Shown here one piece after another: positions 16,742 to 45,558 of a stretch of DNA of 64,000 nucleotides. The position numbers were made by a program, and so were the translations under genes. The notes beneath the pieces were generated by a model that saw only the letters and a list, made by a program, of their open reading frames with translations, did not search any database and was not told where the DNA came from. Each line of letters begins with the position of its first letter. The first letter of the stretch is position 1. Origin of the DNA: Isoetes taiwanensis (lineage: Eukaryota; Streptophyta; Lycopodiopsida; Isoetales; Isoetaceae); contig JAJEKV010000008.1 in assembly GCA_021234155.1 (NCBI GenBank), positions 19,173,308 to 19,237,307 on the forward strand, given 5' to 3'.

Positions 16742-18563
16742 TCATATTGACGAACTTAGATCCAAGTAATGGCTTGATAAAGCCATAAGCAAACTGATTC
16801 TATGAAGAGCATTGAACAAGTTGAGAGATCCAATTTGGATCTGCTCACAGACAAAACACAAGTGGGCGTCAAGTTGTTTTGTCTTTGGGTGGTACTTAGC
16901 ATCCTTGGCAAAATGGATGGTACTTGTGTTGTCGCACAATATAACAGCTGAGGATGGAGGTACCTACAGATATGTCCACAAATGTTTAAGCCACAACAAT
17001 TCCTGCATCCCAACACTGAGTGCTTTGAATTCTACCTTCGTGGTGCTGTTTGACACTGTAGACTGTCTTTTGGACAACCATGTCAGCATATTAGGCCCTA
17101 TGAATGTGACCATCCCTGTTGTGGACCTCCTACTATCATGACAATTAGCATGATCTGCGTCAACAAAGACTTTCAGCTGGAAATCAGAGGACCTCTGATA
17201 AAAGAGACCTTCCTGTGAAGTCCCCTTCAGATATGCCAGCAGTCTTTTAGCAGCCTTCCAGTCTTTTGCTCATAAATCTGCTTAGCACTCCCACAACAAA
17301 AGCTTTGATAGAGTGTGGGATCACACTCCTTACCATCGAAATCGAGCTCAAGCCTTGTGCCTAGATCAAAAGGACCTGCCATAGCCTTGCAATCTTGCAT
17401 ACAATACTGTTGTAACATTTCTTTGATATATTTCTGCTGAGAAAGATAGATGCCATCTGAATGCTACCACACTTCTATACCTAAACAGTAATGCATAAGA
17501 CTAAGATCAATCATCTCGAAGGACGAAGATAACTTCAACTTCAATGTAGAAATTAGCACATCAGCATCTCCTGTGATGATCAAATCATCGACATACAAAA
17601 CCACAATGCACATTTGGCCTTCATGTGATTTGTAATAAAGATTGGGATCTGCTGCACTTCTGCTGAACCTCTGCTCAAGAAAGAAAACATTAATTTTCGC
17701 ATGCCAACATCTTGGAGCCCGCTTCAAGCCATAAAATCTTTTCTTCAAATGACAAACCAGCTGCTCCTTTCCTTGATCAACAAATCCTGGAGGTTGAGTC
17801 ATATAGACCTCTTCCTCCAAATCACCATTCAAAAAAGCAGACTTAATGTCCATTTGAAACATTCGCCAACCTTTCATCGCAGCAAGAGCTATAACTGATC
17901 TAATAGTGGACATTCTGGCTACGGAAGCAAAGACTTCATCATAGTCTAAGGCTTTTTTTTGTGCAAATGCCTTGGCTACAAGTCTTTATACTTTGACACT
18001 GTCCTACCAGCATAAAATTTGGTTTTAAACACCCACTTACAGCCAATAACTTGCTTATCAGCTGGAAGTTCAACCAATTTCCATGTGCCTTGCTTCAGCA
18101 ATTGAGAGTATTCTTTTTCCATTGCATGCTGCCACTGCGGATCACTAGCTGCTTCATGAAAGGATCTCCTATTTCTCCTGTTTCTCCATCAGACGTGCTG
18201 ATCTCCTAGGTTCAACAACAGGTAGAACAGGTGCTGCAACCGGTTTTGCAACAATTTGTTTTTCTTGAGATGTGCTGATCTCCTACGTTCAACAACAGAA
18301 GGTATAGTAGGTGCTACAATAGGTGCTACATCATCTTCATGTGTGCTGGACTCCTTGTGAAAGGAACCAACTTGCTCATGGACTATAGGGCGAGTGGGAT
18401 TGGGATCATCCCGTGCCACTAATTCAGGCAAATGTGAGTCTGAAGAAACCATTAGAGAGGGAGAGAAAGGTCTACCAGCAGCTGCTATCAGATCTCCAAC
18501 ATCCAAGTTGCTGTCATTGTGAGCTGCAGGAGAATCATTGGAAGGTATACCGGGTAAAAGCAC
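16742..18563 (-). pseudogene. Copia pol remnant: reverse transcriptase and RNase H
   Basis: The 3' half of a Ty1/Copia polyprotein in several frames. From 18160 downward, AASDPQWQHAMEKEYSQLL and VIGCKWVFK open the reverse transcriptase. 17913-17464 is an intact RT core with FQMDIKSAFLNGDLEEEVYM, FYGLKRAPRCWH and the catalytic LYVDDLIITGD. 16939-16742 holds RNase H CDNTSTIHFAKD with YHPKTKQLDAH. The 18563-18189 segment is the Ser/Pro-rich linker before RT. Gag, protease, integrase and the 5' LTR are missing, so the element is truncated near 18563, where a new unit begins. Frameshifts make it inactive. Confidence 0.85.
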
Positions 18564-20184: not shown

Positions 20185-20355
20185 TCGATTTCTTTCATGT
20201 CTTTCTTGATTAGTTCAGGTGTAAGATTGGTAGATGGATATTAGTTAGAAGTTGTGCATTGGTTGTGCATTAATTGTTCTGTAAAGCACAGTTTCATTAA
20301 ATATGGATAATACCTTGAATTGTGGACTTTTTATAAAAGAGACGCTTCGATAACA

Positions 20356-23220
20356 CTAACATACATCCCCGGCAAGTGCCGCATATGCTTCTGCAACAAG
20401 TGTGGGAATCTTGACAGTGTTTGGTAGCTTCTTCTTATTCGAAGGACTCCAAGCGTAGTCGATACTCTCTATCTCAATGCGGTCACTAGCAGTGGTCGGC
20501 CTCCATCTCTTCTTCCAACAATTGACATAGTTGGCTGGGAACACCTGGTTCCTAACAGGGACAGGCTCCCACCAAGTGACCTGGATAGTCTCGAAGTTGT
20601 CTTTCTTATCATCCATTTGGGGTTCTTCTGTAGCATACCCTAGCCATGTTGGGCACAAGACATCATCGTATACGCCAATACAAACATGCCCTTCTTCAAA
20701 TCCTTGAAAGGATTGAATTCTGGTACGGGCTTATCCTTCAATGGACCAACATAAGCAGGAGTGATGGTTGCAATTGGCTCCACCACCACCACACATCGCA
20801 CGCCAAGTCTATCTTGCCTAGTCTTGCACCCAAAAGTCCTCGTGGGACCTTCCACGTTGGTGATGCTACTCGGATGCTCCAAGAGTCCCATCAATATTCA
20901 ATTGTCGCCGTAAATTGTCTTTGTATATTTGGCCGCCTCTACGGTGTGCCCTTCTTGTTCGTCGAGCATGCGACCCAATGGAGGATATGCTTATGGATAC
21001 TGTTTCGGAGCTGACCAATGTCTTTCACCGAGCTCTTAGGTGCTAGCATCTTCGGATTTCCAGATGGCATTAGGGGTTTTCCATCCTCTCCTTCTTTCCA
21101 CATTCTTATTCCACCAGCAGGTAGCCAATCCACGAACGTAGGACGAGCCTTATGGTACATGACAGGCCAGTCACCATTCATAGCAAACATAAAGGTCAGA
21201 GGCTCAGTGTGACCTGTCAATCTATCTTCCCCATCAGGGATATACCCTTCTATGAAACCTTTCCAATCTGGAACCTTATGAACAACATATGGCACTGGCG
21301 TGTTGAGATTGCACGTATGAAATTCATACAACAACTCGGGCATGGTTAGCACTTCGGCTTTCTTCAAGGTAGATGAAAAATTTCCAAACATAGCATCTAT
21401 ATCGTCATGTGTATGGCCAGGCATCATAAACCCTAACTCAATCTCCTCGAAAACACCCAGATATACAAGGTATGAAAGATACGAGAATACATACCTATTT
21501 TTGTTTTGTCCGGATGCATTGTCTAGTTGCAACAAAGAATTTGCGAGGGAGACGCTTCAATGAGGGTCCCTCGGGTTGAGGGATGGCAGCGGGGATGCTC
21601 TTCCCGCACAAATGACAACTTGACGCTTAGCGGTGGTGTCACGTAAAGGCCCCGCCCAATCACGGGACTGATGGATCGACAAAGGCAAGATGGCCTCCCC
21701 CAAAAACTCATTAGGGCAGCTCCAACCTTTTCAAAATACTATTCAAAGAACCTACGTGGAAGTTGGAGTCGCCCGACCACGGATCCAAAGCAAAATTTCC
21801 ATAGCACCCTCTCCCATGGCGGTGGGGTAAGTGCACTGTCAATGAAGTCTTTAGCTTATCTAGTCTCCAAAGGGACTTCACGAATCGAACAACTTTGGAA
21901 TCATAGTCTTTGCCTGATCCATTTTGTCGTGAATGATACATACAAAGTCTCGAGGATGCCCGTGGGATACTTGAGTCTCCATGACCCGATCTTTGGGTGC
22001 GACATGATTGTTTGCTCTAGTCTATGTGCCCTTCTCACGATCATGCAATATTCTCCTCTCACCTCATCCTTGGTCTTCAGCAGCCCGATGCGGATAACCT
22101 CGCAAGTGTCACACTTGGAGAATGCATTCTTCTTAGCAATCTTGGCGTCCTTGAAGCTACGTCTCCCGTCCTATGAAATCACCGGAGGATACCTTCTTGC
22201 CCGTGGAGTGCCATCACTTCAGCGTTGACCTCTTCGAGAATGCATGTCTTCGTAAACATAGCAGGCAACTTCCTCACATTTTCTCGAATCCCATCATCAT
22301 TCCTCCTGCTACGGTGAGGTAAGGACTCACAATTTTCCTTCACAAACATGGAAAAAAACAGCCTCTCGAGGCCAAGGTGGCCGCCGCGTGCTCATAGTGC
22401 ACGAATTGCCATGCTTTCGCCTTTCGAAAGTAACCGGCGAATTCGCCTTCCACTTCGGATACCTCGACTTTGAAATCCCAAGACCAAGGTACCAAGCCCT
22501 CTCCACGGATTACCGATGCCTTGCAAGACTAGTCGATGAACCCTTCTACCCTTCATATTGTTGCCTAACATGTCATACAAAAGTGGTCCCGTCACTTTCG
22601 ATTTCATGGCAAAGAAATCCTTTCGCATGTTTATAGCTTGATCCCTACCGAATTTCTCACAACATCTCTGTTTTGCAACACATGGTCTTCCTATACCTCA
22701 AGATGGCTTCATTGGTTGTTAGCGATCTATCTTTGGAGGCTTTGATGCTTTCTTTGGCCGACCGAGAATGGAAGGTGTATTTACGCTTCTCGTGCTGCGG
22801 ATGCTTCTGAATCTCAGAGCTGCCACCGCTCGGCGTCATATCATCTTTGTTCCACTTGCGCCCGCCTTAAAATTTCCGACACCTTCACCCCACAAACCCT
22901 AACTAGATCATTATTCCACCTCAAAAGCATGCCCGCTTTGGGTATTGTCAAACATGCTTGGACCTGTTCGAAGTTCACCTCTTCGGAGGAAAGCCTTGAT
23001 AACGAACACCCCTCGGTCTTCATACCCAAGAACTGGTCACATCTTGCATCGTGCGGACCCGTTGAAGGATATAAATCCCTTCACATTGCAGGGATGGCAG
23101 CACAAAAGTGATAAATTTTGCATGGGTCTCGGTGGTGTGTACCTAGTTAGCAACATGGTGTCTGTTGCTTCCCCTCGTTGTCTTTTTTGATCTTGGCAAC
23201 CCGTCCACGGAGTCATGAAC
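20356..23220 (-). pseudogene. DUF7869-like transposon gene of unit F1 (decayed)
   Basis: The best-preserved part (21535-20939) encodes LQLDNASGQNKNRYVFSYLS, IELGFMMPGHTHDDID and AMFG, the pattern of the eukaryotic DUF7869 domain (acidic residue in LDN-x-G-x-NK, then GHT-x2-D/E-D). Upstream, in another frame near 21940, is HDKMDQAKTMIPKL, and near 22110 FSKCDTCEVIRIGL, both typical neighbours in this protein type. Downstream frames to 20356 end in WWEPVPVRNQVFPANYVNCW. At least six frameshifts or stops occur. The Asp/Glu-rich motifs suggest an RNase-H-fold DDE transposase relative, but that is my inference. The gene faces the RING gene tail to tail, about 170 bases apart. Confidence 0.55.
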
Positions 23221-25800
23221 ATCAATATGTAGCATAATAACAGGGGGTTTTCTTTGTGTTTTTGTACGCTTTTTACAAAGGTTTTCTTAAGATTTCATGG
23301 CGTATTCGAATGGATGTACTAATGCGTACATCTAGAGTGCATCATTTCTTAGTCGTTGATTTAACTTTTTTTTTTCAATGGTCCAACATCCAAAGGCTCA
23401 CAACAAAAGCCCTCTTTTTATTTTAGGGGCTGAACATGCAAGCCTCGTGGATAGCATTTTAAGGCATTCTTTGCCCTAAAGCTTGGCCATGAACCACTGT
23501 TGGGGTTGGCCGACATCATGGCACATCGGATTTGAAGCAGCGGATTTGCAGCATATTTGCAGCGAAATGTCAAGGCAGATGTCAAGTTTTGGGCCTTTAT
23601 AAAAACTTCTAGGGCAAATCCAGAGTTGGGGGTTTCTCCTACAGCAGAGAGCTCAGGAGGTTTCATCTGCAGCCAGAGCTCGGGAGTTCCAGACTAGTTT
23701 TAGATTTTTTGGATTTTGGCATACACATGATCAGAACACTATTCTGACTCAGATTTCTGAAGGTGCTTACGTTTTAGAACCACCCCAAACAACGGCAGCG
23801 ATCCCCTCCACAGAAGCATTGAAAGCTCGCCATTATACCAGCGCCGAAAGGTCAGATATGGGGTTTTAGGTGTATCGTCGATCCGTCCACGGCTCGAACC
23901 AAAACCAAGGTAAACTTTCTTCCCTCGTTTTTCTTTAAGGCCATAAATTATGTGTACATGTTTAATGCTTCTGTTACTATCCATATCAATGCCCGGCAAG
24001 CAGCTCAACTACCGCTTCAAGGACCCTTTAAAGCTAAGTTATGTCTCAGATTTTTTACCGAATGAAGCTAATGGCTCTCAATCTCTCGAGTAAAATTGGA
24101 GCAAGATCATTTATCGGGATTGTGATTTTGTCTTTTTACATCCGATCTCAAATGTAGGTCTACCTAATCTAAAAGAATGAGCTGAAGTTAGATTTTTTGT
24201 GATGGGGTGGAAGCTAAGATGGCACTCGCTTTTTGTTTCTCGGACAATGAGTACGATCTTTGCACACCAACTCTCTTTGTATTTGGCGATTAAGTAGATC
24301 CCGGAAATAACAACTATTTGGCAACTACGGCAAAGGCAAACTTCCTCCTTATGGACAAATTTGATACTAGGCGTACTAATCCGGGTTTTCACCGTGGACA
24401 CTTTGTGAAGTTTGGTTTTGCAATGGCTTTGTAGCCACAGGTTCTAGCATGGAGAATTCTTGAAAAAGCCGGATTGCTTGATGAAGCAAAAGGGGTACAA
24501 TCTTGCTGGATTACATTATTTTATAAACGTTCATCCTTCCAAGAATGAGCTATACTTCCGGGTGAAATTTCACCCCTTATCCTTCTAAGCATTATCTTAT
24601 CTTCTATTTTTCATTATGCATTGTGCTCTCTCTCGTTTGTTCTAAGCTTAATTCCACACTGTTAAACCATGGAATTCATTGCTTTAAGTTATGCAATGGC
24701 TTGCTTTCCTTTGTCCAGGCTCGAATTTACATACTACCTTGCTAGCATTTGTCATGTTCTTGGAAAGTTTTTGCATATGTGCTGCTCAAAATATGTTAAT
24801 GCTAAAGTATTCTCTGTAGTATTCTCTATGCAGGTTCAAAAAAAATTTGCAGGATGTTGATATCTCTAGCAATGCTTACGATGGCAATTGCACAAACAAC
24901 TAAGGAAGATCAAGTTTATCGCATGATCCATTTCTATTTTATGTGTAACTACCAATGCCTATAGTTTCTATTCAGTCAAGATAAATTGAGCGTGTTGTTG
25001 CAACAATGCTATTTTAGAATGATTTCAAGACAATTTGAGCACATTGTTACAATGTTGTCATTTTGGAGCCTATAAATTATGCAATTTAAAATATATGGTT
25101 TGCAATAACACATCAATCATTTTGTACTTATATTTTATTTTGATTTTTATTTTTTTTTTACCTCAAAGTTTATCTATGTTTGTTTCTTTTGTGGCCCGAA
25201 GGGCCAAAATTTTTTTGTAATATAACAACCAACATAACTGCTATGAATATTAATTAACACAAACTATTACATTAGACATGTTTAAAATTAAATTCCCCCT
25301 TAAACCCCCTTTTGTTTGAGTGCATATTCACACGGGGGGTGACGTAGGGCAGCGAGAGCCCCTGTAATTATGTTTTGCACGTACAAAATCAACACCATAT
25401 AGTATATTGTTGAAATCTTATAGTATTTTGCAAATCTTATTATACAGTATAACAAATTCTATACATCCATACCCCACAAACGAGGAACTTTGTGTACGGT
25501 GTAGATTAAGGAATAAGGGGTGAATATGCCTATCCAACAGCTCCAGAGAATGAAGGAACCCAATGCCTCACCTAAGGTACTTGCTTCTGGAGTAGGCCAA
25601 GAGAGAACATGATGCCCCTCAAACACGCCTAGAACACCCACACTCACAAGTCCATGCAGGATGTCTTTAAAGTGGCATCTCTCCCCAGCTCCCATGGTCC
25701 CTTTGCCAACCGCCCGACCATCTTTGAATAGGTACACCTCCTGCACCAAAAAAAATGAATCAGTTCAAGAGCAAAGTTACAGCACATGGTCCTTAGATGG
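23221..25800. other. 2.6 kb without a recognisable gene
   Basis: Mostly AT-rich sequence. Frames on the minus strand (23418-23666, 23739-24008, 24111-24401) show no motif I know. A palindrome GGCCCGAAGGGCC lies near 25194. GGGGTGACGTAGGGC at 25336 is a weak candidate for a GGGT-type transposon end. Either host intergenic DNA or the unresolved edges of units F1 and F2. Confidence 0.35.
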
Positions 25801-26425
25801 TGAAATTGGCCGGGCGCCCAATTTTCTCCCTGTTGTTACGTAAATTGGGGAGGTGAAATTGGGCACCCGCCCTATTTCCTCCACTATTTGATGTTTCTTA
25901 GGCTGCTCAAGTGGGCGAGCGCCCAATTTGCTCCACAATCTAGTAACTTTGAGGAGTTGGGGGTGGGCGTGGCCCCTTTCCTCCCTCTTGATGTTTCTTA
26001 TTTGGTCAAATTAGGCTGGCCCAATTTTACTCCCACTGATCTAGTAACTTTGAGAAGTTGGGGTAGGCCCCAATTTCCACCTTCTGCGATGTTTCTTAGG
26101 CTTTCTTTGAGAAATTGAGTGGCAATTTGCTCCACAGTCTAGTAACTTTGAGAGTTTGGTTGGGCACCAGCCCTATTTCCTCCTATTCTGATGTTCTTAG
26201 GCACTCAAATTGGGCTGGCCTTGATTTTGCTCCACGGTCTAAAGCCTTTGAGGAGTTGAAATTGGGCAGTGGCCCAATTTCCACCCTGTTGCAGTGTTTC
26301 TTAGCTGCTGAAATTGGGCGAGCGCCCAATTTGCTCCCTGGTCTAGTAACTTTGAGGAGTTGAAATTGAACACCCGCCCAATTTCCTCCCTGTTGCAGTG
26401 CTCCTTAGCTGCTAAAATTGGCTCC
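25801..26425. repeat. Tandem array 1, degenerate GCCCAATTT palindromes
   Basis: A unit of roughly 90-100 bases containing tctagtaactttgaggagtt, a dyad such as AAATTGGGCGAGCGCCCAATTT (here split as arms AAATTGGGCG/A and GCGCCCAATTT) and ccctgttgcagtgtttctta is repeated about six times with many changes. The spacer differs from that of the other three arrays. Confidence 0.7.
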
Positions 26426-27232
26426 CTGGTCTAGTAATCTTGAGGTGCTATACGTAAATGAAACATAGCCACTCTTTCTAAGGCAGGCACCCAGGAATGA
26501 TACATATTCAGGAGGTCTATCCGCCCATACAGTGTTACTCAGGAATCAAACTAGGCACCCATTTGGCCCTGCTTCCATGCTACCCGAGATAGAATATAGA
26601 GGGGACCGAACATACATCTCTCAAAATTTTCTTTTTATCTCTCAAATCTTATCATCAATAATGTTCTATACCAATCCGGGCAAAGAATGAACGATATCAA
26701 TCGAAGAAACCTACCTTTGGTGAATCGCATACGCCATCCATTTGAAGAAGTTGTTGCCCAAGAATGTGAGAGAAACGAAATGGCTTAACCGCCAGCTTCC
26801 TCGAGTATTTCAAAAATCAATTCTCCCACCGAGTTCAATATATATTCAAATTCAAATTCAAATGCAAAAAGGGACGTAAATCAAATATTGGTGGGGCCCT
26901 AATTTGAAATTGAAAATGTACCGGCGGACCGTACTATAAATTTGAAATTAGGGCCGTGAGAGAATTCAAAATTTAAAATTTAAATTTCAATACGTGTATG
27001 TCAATTTAAAAAAAGCGCATTTACTTTTTCGGGCACATTTATTGCAAAGCTGTCTATTTTTATTGTTCTGTCCTTTGGTCCATATTTACTTAAAAACGTC
27101 TATTTTTTAGGGTCTTCTTTTGCATGGCCGCCACTTGTCACTCATCGGTTAAACCTAACAGCCCATTCCTTTTCGCATTCGGCATTCTTTGAGCTTTGTT
27201 CATATCGATTTCTTGAGCCCGACCACCTGCGA

Positions 27233-27385
27233 GCATCCAGGCGCCTATCGTGTTCACACTGATTTCTTCCAAGCGCTTACTCCAAGCATCCAGGCGCCTA
27301 TCGTTTTCAAATTGATTTCTTCCAAGCGCTAACCCGAGCTACCCGAGGCGCTGTCGTGTTCAAAGTGATTTCTTCCAAAATATTT
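27233..27385. repeat. Three tandem copies of a 52-base unit
   Basis: gcatccaggcgcctatcgt, a short variable part and tgatttcttccaagcgct occur at 27233 and 27286 and more diverged at about 27337. Confidence 0.65.
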
Positions 27386-27744
27386 GCGTACTGCTAGCTT
27401 CCGGCATACTTTGCTTTCATGGAAAGTCGACCCGTGAAGGGAGGAAAAGTCTTGCTCTTTTCTTCAACTTCAGTTCTTTACATTAGTCACGGGGAGATAA
27501 GCCAGCGGCCTTAAGGAGTCCACCCAATCCTATGGCGCACCTCTCTGGGCTTGGTTGTCACTTTGTACCTCGAAGTTGTCTCCCTCACCCAATAACCCTT
27601 TTGGCCCGATTGGATCATTCTAATTACCACGAAGGGCCCAATTTGTCTCCTCTTGGCTACATAAGTCCCTTGGATCGACAAATCGGTGAGCCCAAATCTA
27701 TCAAAGCTCTAAACCTTCTTCTTGCTTTCTAACCTTCCAATCTT

Positions 27745-28405
27745 GGGGCAAATTGGGCGCCCAATTTGTGCCTTTCTTCTTTAAAGTAAGTCATTTGGAG
27801 GTCTCTCTTCTAGGTAACCTCATGTCTTTTGTAAATTGGTGGTAGCCCAATTTGGGACCCTCTCGCCTCTCTCTTCTTGTAACCTCCTGCTGCTCACGGC
27901 AAATTGGTGAGGCCCAATTTGGGACCCCATCTTCTCTCTTCTTGTAATCTCCTGCACTTTCTGCAAATTGGGGCGGGGCTTTGGGACCCTCTGGCCTCTC
28001 TCTTCTTGTAACCTCCTCTGCTCTGGCAAATTGGGCGGGCGCCCAATTTGGGACCTCGAAACTTCTCTCTTCTTGTAATCTCCTCTGCTCTGCAAAATTG
28101 AGGTGCCCAATTTGGGACCCTCGAGCTTCTCTCTTCTTGTAACCTCCTCTGCTCACACCAAATTGGGCGAGCCCAATTTGGGACCCTCGAGCTTCTCTCT
28201 TCTTGTAACCTCCTCTGCTCTGGCAAATTGGGCGGGCGCCCAATTTGGGACCCTCTGGCCTCTCTCTTCTTGTAACCTCCTCTGCTCTGGCAAATTGGGC
28301 GGGCGCCCAATTTGGGACCCTCGGGCTTCTCTCTTCTTGTAATCTCCTCTGCTCTGCAAATTGGGCGGGCGCCCAATTTGGGACCTCTTGCAATCTTTGG
28401 TTAGT
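27745..28405. repeat. Tandem array 2 of the AAATTGGGCG/CGCCCAATTT palindrome
   Basis: About eleven units of 60-65 bases. Each has a palindrome and a spacer like gggaccctcgggcttctctc followed by ttcttgtaacctcctctgct. Four units carry the perfect 22-base form (arms AAATTGGGCG and CGCCCAATTT around GG); others have shortened centres. The array ends 90 bases before the start codon of the histone-tail-mimic gene, so it may be part of its promoter. Confidence 0.85.
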
Positions 28406-28493
28406 TTTGTAATCTCCTCTCTTTCCGCAAATTGCTCTTTTAATTCTTTGACACACCACTAATGGGATTCATGAATGATGTTATGCAGCACCC

Positions 28494-31082
28494 ATGGCAA
28501 GAACTAAACAAACTGCACGTGTACCAGGATCTGGCCCTCCGTTGGCACAGGCATTTGCTGCAGCAAAGGAAGCAGAGGCGGGAATTCAGTTCAATGGTAT
28601 TGAAGTCGTCCCGGAACTAATGACTGCCGTAGCAGATAAATTTACTTGGTGCATAGAGGTAGGCAATATCCACCCTGGGTCTAGCACGAATCACCTCAAG
28701 GATCTGTGGCTTTTTGTACTTTCTTGAGCAGGGACTGGAGGACCTGAGAATGCAGGTATAGCAATCGACATGTCTGTGAGCACTGAGTTTGCCAACGAGT
28801 TAGAGGTTGTCGTAGAGGACGTGCTTGATAAGTCATTTCAAGGATACAGGTTACCCTTTGGGACTTACAATCCTCAGCTAATGCATGCAAGCATCAAGAG
28901 GCTTCACATTAAGTGTCGAGGCCAAGGGTCGGGTCTGTCTTCTTACGAAAGCCTTGAGAGATCTGGACTCACCAAACGGGGAGATATTATAGATGGATTT
29001 AATACAGTTAGACAGTGCATACTCGATCACAAACAAAATCGATCAAAGGCCCTTTACACAGAGTATCATGGGAAGAGCCAACCAAAGGTCTATGACACGG
29101 CGTGGTTGAGATCACGTTATGGAGTTCCTAAGAAGGGTGACCGGACGAAGGGGAAGAAAAACCCGCGGCCGTGTCATCGAAAAAGGTTCCTAAGAAGAAA
29201 AGATCGAAACATCAACTCCAAAACTGATTCTTGGTGGTATGGGAAGAACATCCGTGGCCCGGGCGTTAGCATTAGATCGCGGGAGGTATCCGGCGGTCCC
29301 CACCGGAAAAAGCAAGGAACAAAGCGAAGTCGGCCGCGCGGCAATAGCTTCCTCGTCTAAGAAAAGAAGAGACCCTACTCCACCATCAACATCGGTGCAT
29401 CCGATGGGGAGGACGGGCCGACACTCCTCACGGAAAGGCAGCGGGCAAATTGTGAAGTGCTTTCGACATCCGGCGGGCGTTGACTCAAGAAAGCAAACGT
29501 GAGTTGTCCCAAACTGCATTGATCAACATTAAGCACAGGGAAAGGATCTATCCTCTTGGTGTTGAATTCGAAATAGAGGTGGATATCTTCAAAATGCATC
29601 AAGCACCTGCAAATATGACCTGCAGGGTCATCAATCCAGAACATGTTGATACACTCTATGAATCATTTATAAATGTGCAGATGCATCCACCTTGTGCGGA
29701 TGTTGTACCCTTTGATCCGATCCTTTGGGCGTGCACCTTTGAAGTGGAAGAAGGCCACCGATTTGGACAATGCGAATTCGGATTGTAAATGGCAATCACA
29801 CTACTCTGCGGTTGCCCAAATTCTTGTCAACCAGGCGTTGGAATGGCCAGTGAAAGGGCTCATCCGAAAGATCTTATCTTTTTTCTTCTCGCCAAAAGAA
29901 AATGTCGTGTCTTTGGCGGGGAACCTCACTCCTCGAATATGTGAAGGTCAGCCGAGAGAGCAACGATATCACCAAGAATACTATCCATCGGGATGTCTAC
30001 TTGAACAAATACGCCAGCTTAGGAATCAATGGGCATTCTATGGAAAGTCAAGAAAGGAAAGCGGACTATCCCAAGATAAGCGCATATTCAAGTAGTCATT
30101 TCTAATTGTGGATGCGATGCATTTTTTCATAAATCCTTTATTATCAAATTGGGCGGGCCCAATTTGGAGAGGCCTCCCATGTTTCTGCGCAATCTTGGCT
30201 ATGAAATTGGGCGGGCCCAATTTCAGATGCCAGGATACTACATGACACATGTTAAATTGCATCCGCTTGGGTATGAAATTGGGCGGGCGCCCAATTTGGG
30301 TTGGCCCCATGTGAATATAGCATGTTAAATTGCATCTGCTTGGGTATGAAATTGGGCGCCCAATTTGGGTTAGCCCATGTGAATATAGCATGTTAAATTG
30401 CATCTCCTTGGCTATGAAATTGGGCGGGCGCCCAATTTGGGTTGGCCCAATGTGAATATAGCATGTCAAATTGCATCTCCTTGTCTATGAAATTGGGCGG
30501 GCGCCCAATTTGGGTTGGCCCCATGTGAATATAGCATGTCAAATTGCATCTCCTTGTCTATGAAATTGGGCGGGCGCCCAATTTGGGTTGGCCCCATGTG
30601 AATATAGCATGTTAAATTGCATCTCCTTGTCTATGAAATTGGGCGGGCGCCCAATTTGGGTTGGCCCCATGTGAATATAGCATGTTAAATTGCATCTCCT
30701 TGTCTATGAAATTGGGCGGGCGCCCAATTTGCGATTTCCCTCATGTGCATTGCATGTTAGCTTGTGCATTGCTAAATTTTGAGACTGTATATTTCAAATG
30801 TGCTAAGTTTACTATGCTGTGCAGGATTGGCTCGCTATAGCGAAGCAGACATTGAAGAAGCTTAGCATGCGAGACTACGATTACTTCGTGTACCTGGATG
30901 ACGAAACTTGGAATATGTGCCTACAAGTGGCTCAGTTATTCTATGAAGACCAGCTAAAAGATGAATTGGGTGAGACGATAGTGGTAAAGGACCGGCTGAG
31001 AATGTTCACGAATAACAAGTGCCGACCTTTAAAGTCCATGCATCCAATGGATCTCAAAAAGACTTTTGACGAGAGATTATGA
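28494..31082 (+). CDS. Transposon-type protein starting with a histone H3 tail, possible ParB-like domain
   Basis: ATG at 28494 (context acccATGg, in-frame TGA at 28476) opens MARTKQTARVPGSGPPLAQA: after Met removal the first eight residues equal histone H3 residues 1-8, including Lys4, but Lys9 is replaced by Val. A frame change near 28730 leads to 28770-29360, with GQGSGLSSYESLERSGLTKR and a basic KKGDRTKGKK tail. A Ser/Lys/Arg-rich linker follows in shifted frames. 29480-29788 encodes IYPLGVEFEIEVDIF and CRVINPEHVDTLYESFINVQ; next, in other frames, FRIVNGNHTT, ENVVSLAG and LEYVKVSRESNDITKN. The order R-x-I-x-x-x-HV-x2-L-x2-S, DG/NGNH and LA-x2-N recalls ParB/sulfiredoxin-fold proteins. Array 3 separates this from a last exon (30826-31082, after tgctgtgcag) encoding LKKLSMRDYDYFVYLDDETW. 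The gene family is otherwise unknown to me. Confidence 0.5.
30145..30735. repeat. Tandem array 3 of the same palindrome with a different spacer
   Basis: Nine units of about 58-75 bases; six carry the perfect 22-base palindrome (starting near 30277, 30417, 30489, 30562, 30636 and 30709). The spacer is ggttggccccatgtgaatat followed by agcatgttaaattgcatctc. The array lies between coding parts of the gene starting at 28494, probably in an intron, since tgtgctgtgcag follows. Confidence 0.85.
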
Positions 31083-32403
31083 CAGCCACCACGCATAAAA
31101 GACCACCAAAATTATCTTTGGAAGGCGTGTCATGAAAATCCGTGCAAGCGAAATAAGAAGATTGGCAATCGCCGTGCACTCCTTAAATATCTCAAAAGAT
31201 GTGAAAAAGCTTCATGTTGACAACATGACCGATTTGAGGAAAATTCATCCTATATTCACGGAGAATTTGATGTTAATGTTCATAACAAGTGTAGGTGATT
31301 GGGTTGATAGCCGCAAGGCGAGGCGAAAAGCTCAACCTTCCAAAGGCTCTTATCCCCGAAGGTTGATGAGTATCTGCGTGGACGGTGGAAGAGGGATCAA
31401 AATCATTCAAATGCTACCGTGTCGAGTCCTCTGCAGGGATGTCGGTTGATGTGGTCAATACCTCTCTCGGTTTGTTGGATGTGATTTCAGAAATATCAAG
31501 AAATGGAGCATGGAGGATTACCGAAGTTCTTGGACTAGATCGGTGTGCTTACTTTTACCAGCAATTATATTGGATCACGATCTTTATCCCCGGATCGTTT
31601 GAGTGAATGCTTGTCCGCCATGAAGACTATAGACGGGGTAGTCGGTATGGGTGGGAGCGCAAATGATCCTAAAAGAGAAACCCTTCCTCTCGTGTTCGCG
31701 AGCCGCGGACTCTCGTTCTTGTAATGTATGTGGCGGAGACCAAGCGGCTGCCCCTGCAATGAATGACCTGAATCTATGCTTCAACGATCGCGGACCATCC
31801 TCAAGAGTATTCGGGTTCCCGCAAAGACTTGAAAGAAGTGGAGGACATAGAGAAGAACCTCCCGATCATGAGTCGCAAAGGTAACATGATTTAAACCCTG
31901 TGGTCTGCGTCTATTTCTTTTCAATGCCACTTATAACGGTTGTACTTTGCTTTCAAAGATACTTGTTGTATGTCGGCCTTGGGGTGACAAGAGTGTGGCA
32001 GGAGGCGGGTGCCCTTTTGCCACATCAATTAGATTCCGGACATGCACATACCTTGTCCCGAAATTTATGCTTGAGGGATCAAAAAATCCTTGATTTCTTC
32101 TCTGGAGGATCCTTTAGCCGTGCAAACTGTATGTCGCGGAATATAAAGCCACGCCTTTGAGAGTGATGAGAATATGCAGCAAAACTTACTCGCATTTTTG
32201 ATCAACTCGAAGTAATCTTTGGATGAGAAGAAATCGAGAGCCCATGCATTGCAAAAATAGCGGAGGGTAAAAAAAGCAAGCGGCTCCAAGGCAAGTCTTT
32301 GTAGTGTCCACTCCTCTACCTCCTTGTCCATTCCCCGCACAAACGGTGTTGCAAGAGTTGCAATCCACTCTCCTGTTGTCTAAAGATTCTCTCCACGCAC
32401 CAT
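31083..32403 (+). other. Fragmented coding-like segments of unit F2
   Basis: Plus-strand frames continue after the DERL stop: 31090-31240 reads like HQNYLWKACHENPCKRNKK with further stops; 31600-31730 gives DRLSECLSAMKTIDGVVGMG; 31750-31880 MNDLNLCFNDRGPSSRVFGF. They may be later exons of the gene starting at 28494 or a second accessory gene. None shows a motif I recognise. Confidence 0.3.
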
Positions 32404-32858
32404 TTGAGAAAGGTTGCGGGTTTTGGAGCAAAGGACATGTCTTTCTTTAGAAAGAAGAAGGATAACATTAATGCTTTGGCGGGCACTACATTAGTGTGCA
32501 CCCAAGATGTGATCGAGGTAGCTTCGAGTTTACGCAGCCTACTCCTCAAGGATCGAGAACCTTCGTTGTCTTGGACACAAGAAGCTCAGCACTGTGGATC
32601 CGCTACCATCGAAAAGAAAAGGATGTCGAAAAGGAGAAGGAAGTTGAGAAGGAGGACGAGGAAGTTGAGAAGGAGGACGAGGAAGTTGAGAAGGAGGACG
32701 AGGAAAATGAGAAGGAGGATGATGTTGAAATGGAAATTGAGAAGGATGCTCCTGACGCTACGCTAACCACTGAAGAATTCCTCGCTCAGATGGAACTCCT
32801 TAAGCAAGCGGCACAGGCGGGGAGAAAAAGCTTGCTCACACACACAACTCGTCGGTGA
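32404..32858 (+). CDS. Acidic Glu/Lys-repeat protein segment
   Basis: The plus-strand frame through 32590-32858 encodes a run of the heptad-like repeat EVEKEDE (four to five copies, from 21-base tandem repeats near 32638-32720) and then LTTEEFLAQMELLKQAAQAG and a stop. The composition predicts a charged helix or coil. The adjacent frame gives only Arg-rich sequence and is a shadow. It probably forms the C-terminus of an F2 accessory protein; function unknown. Confidence 0.4.
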
Positions 32859-32906
32859 AGGGGTGGACCCTTGAGCACAAGGAGTATGTTTTGCTAGCAC
32901 AGGGGT

Positions 32907-33006
32907 GCAAATTGGGCGGGCGCCCAATTTTGCATCTCTGATACTCTGTGTATATGTGTTTAGAGTGAGCACGGGGGTGCAAATTGGGCGGGCGCCCAAT
33001 TTCGCA
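32907..33006. repeat. Array 4: two units of the palindrome
   Basis: Two perfect 22-base palindromes (arms AAATTGGGCG / CGCCCAATTT, centre GG) about 71 bases apart, each preceded by gcacrggggtgc and with a third kind of spacer (tctgatactctgtgtatatg). Confidence 0.85.
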
Positions 33007-33231
33007 CCACTGTTACTCACTATATAGGTTTTTATAATGAGATTGAGTGAAAAAAACTTATGTACATTGACCAAGAAAATAAATACATGTCGAAAATTTT
33101 TGGTATTACTTTCCAATGTTTGGTATTCTTTTAGATAAAGAAAATACATAGGTCTTACAAGACATGGCTAATTCAACACAAACATACTAGATAATAGACA
33201 ACATATAATAGAAAAGACCAAAGCTTCACTC

Positions 33232-33724
33232 TATGTCCACTTCAACCTCAATAACATCCTCCAGATCGAACTCATCAATATGACTTCGACTGAACAGATC
33301 CAGCCAGTCATCCAAGTTTTTGAGAGAGTGACCACTGCTGACGATGAGCTTGGTTACCAAACCTTCGCATTGTCTTCTTTGCTTCTTGTAAAGCTTCTAA
33401 ACGAGGTCGAAACGTGTTGTGCATCCAAACGTCCTCCATTTTCAGCAGCCTTTTCAGTGCCTTTGCCCTATAAATAAAGCGTTTCAAAGATATGAGGCAG
33501 TCCTCCTCAGCTCCACCCTATTGAGTTGTTCCTCGTTAGCCATTCCTTATCAACCCATCCCCTTCGAGGAGCTTCGAATTGAAGCTAACTTCTCTCGTTC
33601 GGATCTGGTTCATCTCGTTTTGTACCTCCAGCTGCAACTGATTTCGCCGGCCTAAGATTGCCTCACTAATATGAGACTGCATTTCGGTGATGGTGTGTCC
33701 CCGTCTGCGCCTTGTGTCGACCAT
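33232..33724 (-). CDS. Small hypothetical protein gene, minus strand of unit F2
   Basis: ATG at 33724 opens MVDTRRRRGHTITEMQSHIS and a charged segment (ILGRRNQLQLEVQNEMNQIR, a likely short helix). The frame ends at 33536; other frames continue to an acidic end DEFDLEDVIEVEVDIE with stop near 33232. Two or more frameshifts would be needed for one protein. It converges on the plus-strand F2 genes, the same tail-to-tail layout as in elements A and F1. No family recognised. Confidence 0.35.
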
Positions 33725-34018
33725 TTTGAGTGTCCTGAGATGAATGTAAGAGAGCGAATGAAGGTGCTTGCACGAAGAGATAGAATGAAAAGACGATGAA
33801 GAGACTGGATGAAGGGACCTCCTACCTCACCTACTTGCACGATTCCCGAAATTGTGGCTCCTTTTAATAACAAGAAATGACGAAATCTAAAAATTCGCAT
33901 TAGGTTCCACGACCTGCCATGTCAGCTACCCGCACGGAATCCGAGTTCTTTTTTAAGCAATAACCCTATATTTTCAAGAAAAAATCCTATATTCTTACCA
34001 CTGGCGCTAATTTGAGAT
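33725..34018. other. Candidate right end of unit F2
   Basis: The reverse complement of the bases ending at 33931 begins GGGTAGCTGACATGG and then has GTCGTGGAACC, recalling the element E end (GGGTGAAAGCATG..GTAGTGGAAC). A weak partner is GGGGTGACGTAGGGCAGCG at 25336. CACGG lies on the outer side of both, but it is offset from the predicted cut points, so I do not consider the ends proven. Confidence 0.25.
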
Positions 34019-34047
34019 ATTTATGGACTTGTGGAAAGTCCATAAAT
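34019..34047. repeat. Perfect 12-bp hairpin
   Basis: ATTTATGGACTT (34019-34030), loop gtgga, AAGTCCATAAAT (34036-34047). The same arm starts the window at 1-12. Possibly the end of another repeat family. Confidence 0.75.
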
Positions 34048-34149
34048 AATGAAACTGTGCTTTGTAGTATATTAATTACATTTGGATTTTAAAATGTAGG
34101 TTGAAGTGAAGATTTGTAGGGTTGGATCGTTTTGCTTTTCTAGGCTGGT

Positions 34150-36638: not shown

Positions 36639-36824
36639 GTAGTTAAACTCATTCCAACTTATGGAATTTAAAGCTAATTGACTATTGTACTTTGAAATTT
36701 ATTTGAATAAGAAATCGTTTGCAACGCTTTAATTTCTATCAAGGGTTACAAACTAGAATTAGTTTAGACTTTCTGTCTTATCCTTAGGCTTGGTCCGGTT
36801 AGATATATGGCTAACCTAACTGCC

Positions 36825-38109
36825 CTGGATTACTTACATGGCTTATTATATTTGATCTCCAAGGCATTTTGGGTTATAAGTATTGTCAATCAGCACCCAG
36901 TGACTATAATGGCACTCAAGTGCCAATCCAATCTGATGGAGTCTTCTTTTGTCGTCCATTGTCGAAATCATTGTTGTACTGGTGTTCCAACCATTGGGAT
37001 TTGGCTGTTTGGTCAGATCTTCCCTTGGATGTTCTGACAGCCATTGTAGACAAGTTGTATGAGCAAGGCATACCAAGATTTAAATTCATTTATGGTGGCA
37101 ATGGATGTTGGACCCTCTTCTTAGAGGTCAATGATGGGACAGACATATCTCTTTTCCCTTTGGATATTCCACTCCTCAAGTATCCAGAATATAGAAATAG
37201 ATGTGTTATGATTACTGACCTTCCTTTCAAATGTATCTTCAATGAGGGTTGCTCTTGCTGCATACCAGTATGGCATCCCAGGCTAACTGGTGAAGACAAA
37301 GTTTGTGTTGGCTATTTGACTGGTTTGTAGGCTTGAAGAATGCAAATGACTTTACCACTTATGTCCAAGAGCATCAATTTGATACTTCTTGTGCATACAA
37401 TGACACAGTAGTTCAATGCATAAAATCTCAATATGGTGAAGACATTGATAGTTTATGGAGCTTTTGCAATAGAGGTTGCTTGCTAATTAAGAAGCCTAGC
37501 ATCACAGTGAAGAGATTCACAATAATAGAAGAATCTAGTGAAGATGATGAAGGTCTGGTACAAGATGAGTGTGCTGGTACATCAGATAGTAAACAAGTCG
37601 AGGACACGGGCACATCTTCGTGTATGTATCTAACTTAGGTAATACAATTATGCTTAGATGTTGTATGTTGTAGAGCTTTTGCAATACATGCTGTATATAT
37701 ATAACTTAGGTAATACAGTTAAGCTTTCACATGATATACTAATAATTTTGTATGCATTGTAGATGTAAGGAATGATCTACAAAACAAATGTCAAATTCTT
37801 CAACCAGCTGAAGTAGATCTTCAACCAACTGATATAGAAGAAACAAATCTAAGTTCCCAATATGCTTGGCGGGGACTAATCCAAGGTCAATACCATGCTT
37901 CCCCGAGCTTTGAGAAATGGTTGAGAGAATCGGTGATTCCGGATACTCGAAGCAATTTGCTAAATCTACTTGCAGTCCAAGGTTTACTACATAATCCTTG
38001 GGGGAGACCATCCTTTGCAGAAGTAGTTGATCAGCCAATAGGGTGGACCGGCCTTCCAATAGCCAGAGAATGCCCAATAGCAAGTGCTACCGCCAGAAAG
38101 CACATGTAA
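36825..38109 (+). CDS. Second HAD/FCP1-like protein, element D (one frameshift)
   Basis: 36825-37330 encodes LIIFDLQGIL (HAD motif I with Gln at the second Asp position), RPLSKSLLYWCSNHWDLAVW then S (motif II) and CVMITDLPFKCIFNEGC in the motif IV position. This parallels the order DLNGVL, DLAIWSS and VVLADDEVYK in the element A protein at 11797-12435. One frameshift near 37310 leads to WLFDWFVGLKNANDFTTYVQ and a Glu-rich segment ending at 37638. A further exon (37763-38109, acceptor cattgtag) encodes SFEKWLRESVIPDTRSNLLN and ends RKHM stop. The loss of the second Asp and weak motif IV suggest a pseudophosphatase or altered chemistry. Presence of the same fold in two different elements marks it as a transposon accessory protein. 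Confidence 0.55.
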
Positions 38110-39825: not shown

Positions 39826-40547
39826 CTGAAGATTCAAGGAAGTGCAAGAAGATTGAAGGATCAAAGCACTAAACAGGTTAGTTTCATGCCGTGGCTTTCG
39901 CTATTATTTCTTCCAGGATAAATCATACAACAGAAAAATCAATGCACATGAAATTGTTAAGCCTGAGAAATAACTAGCAAATGGCAAGCCGGGATGAAAC
40001 TATCCATCTGTCGAAACCCTAAGAAGCCCTAAAAAAAAAAAAAAAAAAAAAAAAAAGAATTCTGTTATTCAATAAGATACTGCTAAGAAACTGTTAATTC
40101 CGCAACAAGAACTTAAGAATAAATTCTTAAGAACAAGAACTAAGAATTAGAAACCCTAAGAATCAATAAGAAAGCCCTAACGCACTGCCCAAGAACCGGC
40201 ATCGCTGGAAAAACGTTTCCCTGTCGCCGGAAGAAGCGGCCGGAACCATCGCCGTTGTAACTGGCGTCGTAAGACAACAAAAGGATTAAAAAAAAAATGA
40301 CTTCATATAAGAAAATAAAATGAAAATAAAACGGTTAAGAAGGGAAACGTAATATAAGTTGTTGTGGTTTGTTTGTTCGGTGTGTTGGTAAAGGCTTTGG
40401 GTTTGTATTTAGAGGTCGTGTGTTCAAGTCTAGATGCCGACCACGAATTTTAAGAAACATTTTTTTTAAGAATTTTATGAACAAACCTTTAAAGAAAGCT
40501 TAAGCTTATGCTAAGCTAAGATAACCTTTTTTTTAAGGTTATTTAAG
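39826..40547 (+). other. Gypsy leader with poly(A) run and possible tRNA-like SINE
   Basis: The leader has a run of 27-28 A near 40031-40056. At 40365-40470, TTGGTAAAGG and, about 35 bases on, GTGTTCAAGTCT resemble pol III A and B boxes, and an oligo-T stretch follows. This may be a tRNA-derived SINE inserted in the leader, or chance. Confidence 0.35.
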
Positions 40548-41932
40548 ATGCCTAAAGAAGACAAGCCACGGGTGGTGCCAACGCGCTCCCCGTATCCTTT
40601 AAGAAAAGACGGCTCTCCAAAAGAATCAAGTACCAGTCCAAAGGTGGGGTCATCTCCCCTTAGAGACCCACCCAAAGAAGTGCCCCCTAGCGATCCCAAG
40701 CCCGAGGCAAGCACTTCAGTTCCTCCTGATACGGAAACGCTTCAGGACGCTAAACTTGAGGACGCTAAACATGAGAACCACTTGGACGAGGATTTGGAGG
40801 GAGAGGAGTTCGACATTGGCGACCCTCTCCAAGAGGAAATGCATGATCTGTGTGCACAATTGCGCACTATGGCTGCCCAACTCGTTGAGTTACGAAGTGA
40901 GGGAAGTCGTAGGCGCAGGCGTGACGAGGACTCCGATGAAGAAGAAGAGAAGGGAGATAAACAAAAAGGCAAAGAGGACTCAAGCGACTTCTCTCCAGAG
41001 GTTAAGCAATTATACCACCTTCTAAAAAGGGAAAAAAATCTTATGTTCCTCCTTTGCCTAAACCCTTTAACGGGGCTAGGAATAAGACAGCCCTCTCAGA
41101 TTGGATTTTCAAAATGGAACAATATTTTCAAGCTGCTGAAACACCAAATTCTGAGAAGGTCCTATGTGCCTCAAATTCATTAGGAAAGGATGCCTTGTCA
41201 TGGTGGCGTCGCCACACCGAGGCAGTCCAACAAAAACAAGCCCAACAAATTGAAACATGGTCTAAGTTTACTAAGAAATTACGAAATTATTTCATACCCT
41301 CAAACGCAGATCTTAAGTTGAGGGATAAGCTTCATGATATGCGTCAAGTAGGCAGCATCGCGTCTTATGTTCAGGAATTTACTTCGTGCATTTTGGAGAT
41401 TGAGGACCTCACCGAGAAGTCTAAGCTTCATCAGTTTCTATGGGGTCTTAAGAAGTATGTTCGCCGGGAGGTTGAAAAATCTTCCCTTGAAGACCTCCAA
41501 GACGCCATTGAACTAGCAGAAAGTGTTGCTGACTTTATTCCTGAACCAGAATCAAAAGGTACGGATCGTGCTGTTCTGTCTAAGAATTCCACAACCACTA
41601 ATGATAATAGACAAAGTTCCTTTCGACGCAATGAAAATAAAGCTGTCTTTAAACACATGAGTGATCAGCAAAAGGCAGAAGGACTTTGTTATATTTGTGG
41701 AAAGGGAGGACATTTACATTTTCAATGCCCCCATAAGAAAGATAAGTCAAGTAAGCCTGAGGCTAATGCCTCTAAGTATCCGGATAAGAAAAACAAACCT
41801 CAAGGCACAAATAATATGGTCTTTGTGGGAGTAGCACAAGTTAAAGATACTAAACATGCTCCCCATGATACCTTCCGGATTAAGGGATCTATTCGGGGCT
41901 CCGAATTTATCATTATGGTGGATTCGGGGATG
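40548..41932 (+). pseudogene. Gypsy gag (one frameshift)
   Basis: ATG at 40548 opens a Pro/Ser/Glu-rich N-terminus; the frame changes near 41030 into the capsid part (41054 on) with the retrotransposon-gag core WIFKMEQYFQAAE, DALSWWRRHTEAV and ETWSKFTKKLRNYF. A CCHC zinc knuckle CYICGKGGHLHFQC (C-x2-C-x4-H-x4-C) lies near 41690. Gag packages the RNA. The frame runs on into protease (IIMVDSG) and stops because of one extra G near 41927. Confidence 0.88.
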
Positions 41933-43480
41933 CTCCCATAACTTTGTCTCAAGAAAGATGGTTAATAAATTGAGCCTTCCTACTGTGCCACATGACCATC
42001 CCTTGGAGGTTCGAGTGGCTGATGGAGGATCTCAACCATCATCAGACAAAGTGACTTCCCTGAGCTATCGTATTCAAACCTTTCATGGAAAGGATGACTT
42101 TGCCATTATGGAACTTACGCATATTGATATGATCATTGGCCAAGAATGGCTCTGGAAGTATGATCCCTTTATCAGTTTCAGGCGACATGTTATGAAATTG
42201 CAAGTTGATGGCAAGCGCTATGAATTATATGGAGAACATGACTTACCTCAAACTCCATTGCTCTCTGCCATTCAAGCTAAGAAATGGGTAAGCAAACATC
42301 AGGCTCAACTGTATGTTATTACCCTTCATGAACAAGATAAGCATAAGGAGTCTAAGACTGGGATTGTTTTTTCTGTCTTTCCAAGTTCTTTTCCTCTTGA
42401 TGAGTTTAAGGATTTTATGATGCAGGACTCTAGTAAAGATCTCCCTCCACGGAGGCTGGTAGATCATCCTATTGATGTTATTCCAGGGTCTTCTCCTCCC
42501 TCAAGAGCTCCTTATCGAGTCTCTCATCATGAATCACTTGAGATTGAGCGACAACTAGCTGATCTCCTGGAACGCGGGTATATTCAACCCAGTCGTAGTC
42601 CTTATGGAGCGCCTTGATTTCTTGGTCAAAAGAAAGATGGAACAATGAGGTTGTGCGTCGACTATCGTGCCCTTAATAAGATTACGATTAAGAATCGCTA
42701 TCCGTTGCCACGAATAGATGATCTTTTAGATCGTCTACAAGGTGCTCATCTCTTCTCTAAGATTGATTTAAAGAGTGGTTATCATCAAATAAGAATTCAA
42801 GAAGGTCATGAGCATAAGACAGCTTTTAGGACCCATTTTGGGCATTATGAATATTTGGTTATGCCTTTTGGTTTAACTAACGCTCCTGCTACATTTATGG
42901 CAGCAATGAATGACCTCTTTCGAGGACATCTACAAAAAGGAGTAATTGTCTATCTAGATGATATTTTGATTTACTCTAAGACCTTAGAGGAGCATATTCA
43001 GTTGGTACAAGCTGTTCTTACTCTCCTTAAGAATAATCAATATTATTTGAACCCTAAGAAAAGCTTCTTCTTTCGGGATCATATTGAATACTTGGGCCAT
43101 TTCATTTCAGCTCAAGGCATTTCAGTAGATCCTCAGAAGGTGGTCGCTATACGAACATGGCCTACTCTTAAGACTCAGCATGATGTAAGATCCTTTTTAG
43201 GCCTTGCAAGTTTTTATAGGAAATTTGTTCAGAATTTTTCCGTAGAGGCAGCACCATTGACCAATTTGCTGCGTAATGCTCCATTTCGATGGACTAAACA
43301 AACTGAAACAAGTTTCCAAAATCTTAAGAATGCACTCACAACTGCACCCATTTTGGCTATTGCAGATCCAACTCAACCTTTTGAGGTTATGACTGACGCC
43401 AGTGACTATGGCATAGGTGCAGTGTTGATGCAACAAGGCAAGGTGATTGCATATGAAAGTCACAAGTTTTCAAGTCTTTG
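41933..43480 (+). pseudogene. Gypsy protease and reverse transcriptase
   Basis: The protease frame resumes after the single-base insertion (active site DSG, then aspartic-protease fold residues to MIIGQEWL near 42140). RT follows from about 42480; an in-frame TGA at 42615-42617 interrupts it just before the first conserved block. RT blocks are intact: CVDYRALNKITIKNRYPLP, FSKIDLKSGYHQIRI, FGLTNAPATF and the catalytic VYLDDILIYS at about 42945. RNase H begins near 43380 with TDASDYGIGAVLMQQ (catalytic Asp). The frame shifts again near 43475. Confidence 0.9.
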
Positions 43481-44114
43481 AATCTCATTATTCAAAGATA
43501 TGATAAGGAATTTCTAGCAATGGTTTATGCCTTGCAAAAAGTGGAAACATTACTTAATGGGTGTTAATTTGAAATAAAAGACTGACCATCATGCTTTACA
43601 AAATTATTTAACTCAACCAGTCATGAATAAAAGGCAAGCACGGTGGTTGGCTTTTCTAGCCAATTTTCATTTCACTATCACCTATATACCAGGAAGTAAG
43701 AATGTGGTGGCTGATGCTCTCAGTCGAAGGGCTCATTGCAATGCAATCTCAGTAATCACTACTGATTTTGCTCACCACTTTCTTTCACTCTACCCGAGTG
43801 ATAAGGAATTTAAGGAAGTATTCTCTAGCTTGAGTATGCAACAACGTACTCAAGCTGAGATTTCACTTTATAAGGATTATTCTCTACGAGAGAATCTTCT
43901 TTATTTTAAGGATCGATTATGCGTGCCGAATTGTAAAGAGACTCGTGCTCTTATTATTCGCGAGGCACATGAGAAACCTTATGTGGCTCATCCAGGTTTC
44001 GCTAAGACATATGAACATGTGGCATCAGTGTACTACTGGCCACGTATGAAACATGATATTCAAAGGTTTGTACAAGGGTGCTTGGTGTGTCAACGCATGA
44101 AGCTCGATACCCAT
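43481..44114 (+). pseudogene. Gypsy RNase H end and integrase zinc finger
   Basis: After a frameshift and a stop, RNase H resumes as ITYIPGSKNVVADALSRR (43680-43730). The integrase H2C2 finger follows: REAHEKPYVAHPG with two His, then CLVCQRMK with two Cys (near 43965-44100). The gene is interrupted at 44114 by element C; the frame resumes at 50473. Confidence 0.88.
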
Positions 44115-45540: not shown

Positions 45541-45558
45541 GGGCAAAGAAATGCTGCC

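Follow-up and report, generated by a model that had tools for sequence, protein, structure and literature searches.

Anti-silencing proteins carried by transposons and histone-tail mimics made by hosts and viruses are both known. Among the mimics, the SNAG domains and influenza NS1 carry a short H3-like peptide. EZHIP likewise places a short H3-like peptide for enzymes of the H3 tail and works by a K27M-like mechanism (PMC6513997). Among transposons, VANC21 is found on VANDAL21 in introns, between genes and in the non-coding termini, and the short motif to which it binds has accumulated there in tandem repeats (PMC5735166); fungal DNA transposons with a TET/JBP gene have an extra gene that is thought to act on epigenetic marks (PMC12730594). 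Here we describe a stretch of 64,000 nucleotides from the lycopod Isoetes taiwanensis (contig JAJEKV010000008.1, positions 19,173,308 to 19,237,307 of the forward strand; ‘the window’ hereafter means the whole of this stretch, position 1 being its first letter). The window contains an entire DNA transposon with an accessory gene, whose predicted protein begins, after the methionine, with the first eight residues of histone H3, and this H3-like tail is under purifying selection.

Results

A sequence-only reading of this DNA had placed the start of an open reading frame (ORF) at 28494, with an exact copy of H3 residues 1–8 and the loss of Lys9, and direct reading confirms this. The ORF opens MARTKQTARVPGSG, the single such start within the window. 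Its ATG reads MARTKQTARVPGSGPPLAQAF; removal of the methionine would leave residues 1–8 identical to H3 ARTKQTAR, followed by V as residue 9. The start codon and the tail, M-ARTKQTAR, occupy 28494–28520 (+), as judged from direct reading, from other copies and from codon comparison, and the codon at the place of H3 Lys9, which encodes Val in this copy, lies at 28521–28523 (+). A degenerate 26-mer for MARTKQTAR matched once in the window and not at all in 100 shuffles. The span assigned earlier, 28494–28560, has the start region right and covers only the start of the gene. The window copy has an in-frame TGA at 28725–28727 and frameshifts further on.

The in-frame stop that had been reported upstream of the ATG is present (TGA at 28476–28478, 18 bases from the ATG). 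This stop alone cannot establish the start, because an acceptor-like site (TATGCAG, its AG at 28487–28488, +) lies between the two; the TGA is probably in an intron. Many copies have such an acceptor-like AG 5–8 nt 5′ of the ATG, an observation made by reading and without a count, and this implies a first exon further upstream. Translation from the ATG at 28494 is favoured but unproven, because of the acceptor-like site just 5′ of it.

Copies were sought in the Isoetes taiwanensis assembly (1,658,258,908 bases in 1110 contigs), which was built partly from Nanopore reads (PMC8566536); many indels among the copies look like assembly noise. A six-frame search, for which the TGA in the window protein was translated as a residue, gave at least 138 matches, scoring having covered 135 of the 1777 first-look candidates, and 89 of the 138 begin at query residue 1. 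The N-terminal region was read in 103 copies (30 + 60 + 13 new, with 7 longer cuts of known copies excluded), the tail match of each being the best in any frame within 60 bases. MARTKQTAR is exact in 49 of the 103 and matched at 8 of 9 residues in a further 18. The tail is therefore kept at this level in 67 copies and is not in the other 36, which share no more than 7 of the 9 residues, many of them with indels within the tail. Variants of the tail include ARIKKTAR in subfamily D and ARTKSTAR in three copies of subfamily C. Two copies 3.8 kb apart (L048 and L039, at C1042:13106131 and C1042:13109959) are identical around the start and share the same tail-breaking base; judged by sequence, the pair is a local duplication.

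Residues were counted, pooled over subfamilies, in 78 of the 103 copies, namely those whose downstream sequence gives evidence of the frame; the frame best matching MARTKQTAR was taken, and the first residue had to be M, I, T or V. The tail residues A, R, T, K, Q, T, A and R are kept in 69, 67, 67, 69, 62, 68, 71 and 63 of the 78 copies, respectively. At the Lys9 position V occurs in 48, M in 15, L in 4, I in 3, A in 2, K in 2 and other residues in 4, which puts V, M, L or I there in 70 of the 78 in-frame copies. The earlier description of a transposon protein with an exact H3 1–8 start thus stands. The position of the lost Lys9 is not random, so that a mechanism on the H3K9 side is conceivable as well.

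Selection was assessed in the 51 of 103 copies whose frame stays open for 205 codons or more after the aligned start, the tail being ranked among eight-codon windows by the ratio of the proportions of nonsynonymous and synonymous differences (pN/pS). In the 42 that have an ATG at this aligned position, pN is 0.091 and pS 0.692 for the tail, a ratio of 0.131 (rank 5 of 160), as against 0.476 for codons 10–29 and 0.32 for the remainder in the same copies. A 38-row alignment that omits four of the 42, with frameshifted or lost tails, was not used as evidence on the tail. Majority codons were then compared between three subfamilies, A with 12 copies, B with 17 and C with 9, which leaves four of the 42 unassigned. 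Synonymous differences within the tail number 7.0 for A–B, 6.0 for A–C and 6.0 for B–C (of 6.8, 6.3 and 6.8 sites), while nonsynonymous differences number 0 of 17.2–17.7 sites. Over codons 10–35 the nonsynonymous differences come to 20, 14.5 and 21, respectively, of about 50 sites. One-sided Fisher tests gave p values of 0.0008, 0.007 and 0.0005, which are not mutually independent. With 6–7 synonymous against 0 nonsynonymous differences between subfamilies, the tail codons are not evolving neutrally, an outcome that would have refuted the sequence-only reading by its own terms; the H3-like tail is under purifying selection.

The accessory gene had been called transposon-associated, and it does sit in an element bounded by terminal inverted repeats (TIRs) and a target-site duplication. 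The entire DNA transposon measures 13,779 bp from TIR to TIR (20284–34062, +); homology with copy L003 begins at the left TIR and homology with L009 stops at the right TIR. Its ends are inverted repeats beginning AAGCACAG / AAGCACAGTTTCATTA: the left TIR, AAGCACAGTTTCATTAAATATGGA, lies at 20284–20307 (+) and the right TIR at 34039–34062 (−). The same 4 bp, TGTA, flank them at 20280–20283 and 34063–34066. With at most one mismatch the left TIR 24-mer is found at 251 places in the genome, and the reversed control at 0. Both TIRs were found in six of the eight elements whose flanks were fetched, and all six have a duplication (TGTA in the window, TATC in L003, AGCA in the subfamily D element, GTGG in L004, GTAC in L017 and CCATT in L013), 4 bp long in five and 5 bp in one. 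The left end of L009 and both ends of L002 were not found within the stretches fetched. Terminal inverted repeats, a target-site duplication and a putative transposase gene within the TIRs place the element in class II.

Other assignments were tried and rejected. Membership of the KDZ / Zisupton group was dropped for lack of a KDZ-type Pfam match and because the duplication is 4–5 bp, not the 8 bp of Zisupton (PMC12730594). A Helitron-like reading of a 3′ hairpin was abandoned once the TIRs and duplications had been found. A retrotransposon reading fails because the RVT_1 ORF beside the D copy falls outside the right TIR of that element. This ORF (L093:125-2026, −; E 1.3e-27) stands directly beyond the TIR and is probably a separate non-LTR element.

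Three exons are predicted for the accessory gene. Exon 1 (28494–30091, +, end approximate) is open for 533–542 codons in seven copies other than that in the window. Exon 2 (30825–31880, +, end approximate) rests on collinear conserved frames in A, B and D. Exon 3 (31974–32864, +, both ends approximate) contains a stretch like methyltransferase motif I, for which there are weak matches in the D copy only. In subfamily D a predicted in-frame splice of exon 1 to exon 2 would give 897 residues, with exon 3 after them. Exon 1 has no Pfam match at the curated cut-off (the best, Ig_NUP210_9th, has E 0.0035 and 17.9 bits against 27) and nothing better than E 1.7 in the PDB; no histone is among its Pfam or PDB matches, and tblastn of H3 against the window and the retrieved loci gave nothing at E 1e-3. 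No homologue of the accessory protein was confirmed in viral or prokaryote contigs, each scanned with two short peptide patterns; among plant genomes, coverage was confined to the present one. The weak matches of exon 3 in the D copy (PHROG 3008, E 4.4e-4; RsrI, E 0.11; N6_N4_Mtase, E 0.21) agree with one another in pointing to the motif-I end of DNA methyltransferases, but in the Pfam search an unrelated family, VirionAssem_T7, had a higher score (E 0.0067). The B copy L091 has no methyltransferase match. An active methyltransferase is unlikely because no motif IV, (D/S/N)PP(Y/F/W), was seen by reading in exon 2 of L093 or L091. A ParB/Srx fold, considered for ‘WIVNGNHTT’ on a resemblance, had no profile match in the scans and was rejected.

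In the stretches scanned, a 22-bp palindrome, AAATTGGGCGGGCGCCCAATTT, is restricted to the non-coding parts of the element, as defined by our own exon boundaries. With up to five mismatches allowed, the element in the window has 18 occurrences and the remainder of the window (50,221 bases) none. The D element also has 18 and the 10-kb B locus L091 has 16, and in the stretch fetched for L009 all 28 fall inside the element and 0 outside. In the window, array 1 (25803–26384, six copies) stands between the transposase and accessory genes, array 2 (28028–28379, four copies) 5′ of the start, in the presumed 5′ intron, and array 3 (30276–30730, six copies) in the intron after exon 1; a pair at 32909–33002 separates the accessory gene from a third gene. 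The array units vary (67-bp and 73-bp periods in the window) while the palindrome motif persists. Upstream of the accessory gene, two features are common to A, B and D: the palindrome and a segment that is the N-terminus of the transposase.

The probable transposase gene (20359–25764, −) is degraded in the window, where it comprises a C-terminal ORF (20359–20730), a DUF7869 region (20942–21556) and the N-terminal segment (25462–25764). DUF7869 (PF25273) is matched with E 3.8e-32 in the window and 1.9e-40 in the D copy, which has a long DUF7869 ORF with one stop. This gene probably encodes the element's transposase, to judge from its position, its length and the motifs D / D-N-xxGQNKN / GHTH-ID, recognized by reading. 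DUF7869 is without assigned function in Pfam, and a literature search found no paper naming the domain. The third gene (33240–33720, −, about 170 codons, limits approximate) is a frame that begins MVDTRRRRGHT in the window and MVQTRRGHGHT in D; it has no Pfam family at the curated cut-off.

A genome search with a plant H3 protein, in which 150 of 9022 first-look candidates were scored, returned 15 full-length H3 genes (96–98%) and at least 135 further matches of 71–86% identity. All but one of the 135 scored begin at H3 residue 9 or later, mostly covering residues 25–135, and many lie within open frames of 420–500 codons. These H3-core matches (e.g. C1044:6217178-6217492; L137) seem to belong to another, abundant repeat, which may be a second transposon that has captured H3. 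A piece of 251 bases whose end falls within one such match reads as a basic stretch.

Elsewhere in the window, ORFs at 13904–15279 (−), 45921–47970 (+) and 62396–62872 (−) have, by reading, similar cysteine-rich stretches (ETCCC.., CNCD.C) and may be further transposases from one broad group; those at 47326–47970 and 62396–62872 have no Pfam match at cut-off. Also by reading, 40515–51447 (+) holds gag, protease, reverse transcriptase and integrase-like ORFs of a Ty3-type element, interrupted by an insertion of DNA from about 44.3 to 50.6 kb, and 17467–17985 (−) a Ty1/copia-type reverse transcriptase-like ORF. The ORF at 36815–37327 (+) has a weak NIF phosphatase match (E 0.0015, 18.7 bits, below the cut-off of 21.8) and is resembled, by reading, by one at 11764–12432 (+). 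Dense nested tandem repeats fill 55584–56457, with periods of 12, 19, 21, 38, 219 and 427 among others.

Discussion

Mimicry of the H3 N-terminus is the simplest account of a conserved copy of H3 1–8 at the start of a protein, and we consider it likely. Removal of the methionine would expose a free N-terminus that copies H3 1–8, with an aliphatic residue at the place of Lys9. Part of the accessory protein, acting in the nucleus, would locate the element through its palindrome arrays, and the tail would serve either to decoy or to recruit the host's readers and modifiers of the H3 N-terminus, the outcome being that the element stays expressible. We think it quite probable that the tail has a host H3-tail protein as its partner. 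That the accessory protein is a self-directed anti-silencing factor presenting an H3-tail mimic we put at an even chance. The fullest version, a true H3-tail mimic with a K9-to-aliphatic change that is brought to its own copies by palindrome binding and there locally disables H3K9/H3K4 enzymes, is doubtful as a whole.

Several observations weigh against this account. When all 51 copies are taken, including the nine without an ATG at the aligned place, the pN/pS of the tail rises to 0.26 and its rank falls to 59 of 162, so that purifying selection on the tail is not visible in the unfiltered set. The 36 of 103 copies in which the tail is poorly matched belong here too, as does L024, which has R in place of K4. 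The seven copies with an open exon 1 comprise four with ARTKQTAR, one with ARTKSTAR, one (D) with ARIKKTAR and one (L112) in which the tail is lost. The accessory protein has no homologue in the protein collection at E 0.001 or E 10, where only word-sharing candidates were scored, and two AlphaFold models, with pLDDT of 34 and 38, give no usable fold; hence no DNA-binding domain is identified, and binding of the palindromes could fall to the transposase or the third protein.

The proposed mimicry may take either of two specific forms. In one, which the sequence-only reading had put forward, the tail would dock LSD1-like or KDM5-like demethylases, PHD/ADD readers or COMPASS-type complexes on the H3K4 side, either recruiting or blocking them. 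LSD1 is bound by the SNAG domains of SNAIL/GFI1, which mimic the H3 tail. A1, R2, T3 and K4 are kept in 67–69 of the 78 counted copies, and Q5, at 62, varies most, a pattern that fits readers gripping A1, R2 and K4. T6, A7 and R8 are also conserved (68, 71 and 63 copies), beyond what a reader of A1–K4 needs, and we regard this form as possible but tentative. On the H3K9 side, A7-R8 followed by an aliphatic residue might trap SUVH-type methyltransferases as H3K9M does, the element thereby escaping H3K9me2 silencing. The residues at the Lys9 place (V 48, M 15, L 4 and I 3 of 78) favour such a pseudosubstrate, but the commonest of them, Val, counts against a methyltransferase trap and is, to our knowledge, not known as inhibitory at this place. 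H3 S10-T11 are not kept, and conservation of A1–K4 would be needless for such a trap. There is precedent in the trapping of Clr4 by H3K9M (PMC5030085) and in the inhibition of SUVH4/KYP by a geminivirus protein (PMC4606454); overall we consider the pseudosubstrate unlikely.

Explanations without mimicry have also to be weighed. The tail might be kept as a basic nuclear-import or stability signal, its likeness to H3 being due to ancestry or chance, since H3 1–8 is basic and proteins of transposable elements must enter the nucleus. An exact eight-residue N-terminal match in the face of near-saturated synonymous change exceeds what a basic signal needs, however, and T3, T6 and A7 are fixed as much as the basic residues, which makes this reading improbable. 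It is less probable still that the ATG is not the N-terminus, and that an upstream coding exon is spliced to the acceptor so that ARTKQTAR becomes internal. The acceptor-like AG lies mostly 5 or 8 nt from the ATG, distances that would keep one reading frame. The residues between acceptor and ATG nevertheless differ between subfamilies, and in L037 the distance is 6 nt; Met is kept in 69 of the 78 copies, as is Ala, under the requirement already given for the first residue. Moreover, in a comparison of frames of at least 15 residues in window positions 23201–27850 with L091 and D, the only conserved protein segment upstream was that at 25462–25764, which is the probable transposase N-terminus on the opposite strand, and it was rejected as a coding exon of the accessory gene. 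If the tail were the neutral remnant of an H3 gene start that the element had captured, a source would exist in the 15 near-identical full-length H3 genes of the genome; the one read at its start has the somewhat element-like CTGCAGCT directly 5′ of its ATG. Neutrality is contradicted by the 0 nonsynonymous differences against near-saturated synonymous ones between subfamily majority codons, and we hold this origin to be very improbable indeed.

Mimicry of the H3 N-terminus, if true, would allow direct tests of how an early-diverging vascular plant has its chromatin enzymes deceived. That the tail was kept while the underlying DNA changed suggests that the element imitates host chromatin. The conserved octapeptide would also be a natural experiment, in which many paralogous tails show the H3 residues that a host partner reads.

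The closest parallels differ from the present element in instructive ways. The VANC domain, DUF1985, has no Pfam-A match here, and palindrome binding is for this element a proposal. Like the VANDAL/VANC systems of Arabidopsis, the element combines an accessory protein with fast-changing tandem repeats that carry a short motif in introns and intergenic regions (PMC5735166, PMC10398659), and the tandem motif is confined to its non-coding parts as these are drawn here. The available part of the VANC21 account makes no mention of an H3 tail (PMC5735166). With the TET/JBP-carrying fungal DNA transposons the element shares an extra gene with a presumed epigenetic role (PMC12730594), but its accessory protein is a different one and its DUF7869 protein has no KDZ-type Pfam match. 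It resembles EZHIP in the short H3-like peptide set out for H3-tail enzymes (PMC6513997). A literature search on histone-tail mimicry in transposons had no such element among the matches listed, and its coverage left out many subscription papers. EZHIP, the SNAG domains and NS1 are host or viral proteins, whereas here an exact match to H3 1–8 would stand at the N-terminus of a protein from a plant DNA transposon. Epigenetic genes borne by transposable elements are already known (PMC12730594), and the H3-tail device on a transposon anti-silencing candidate would be new; a DNA transposon that mimics the H3 tail would, if true, unite transposon anti-silencing proteins with the histone-tail mimics of hosts and viruses.

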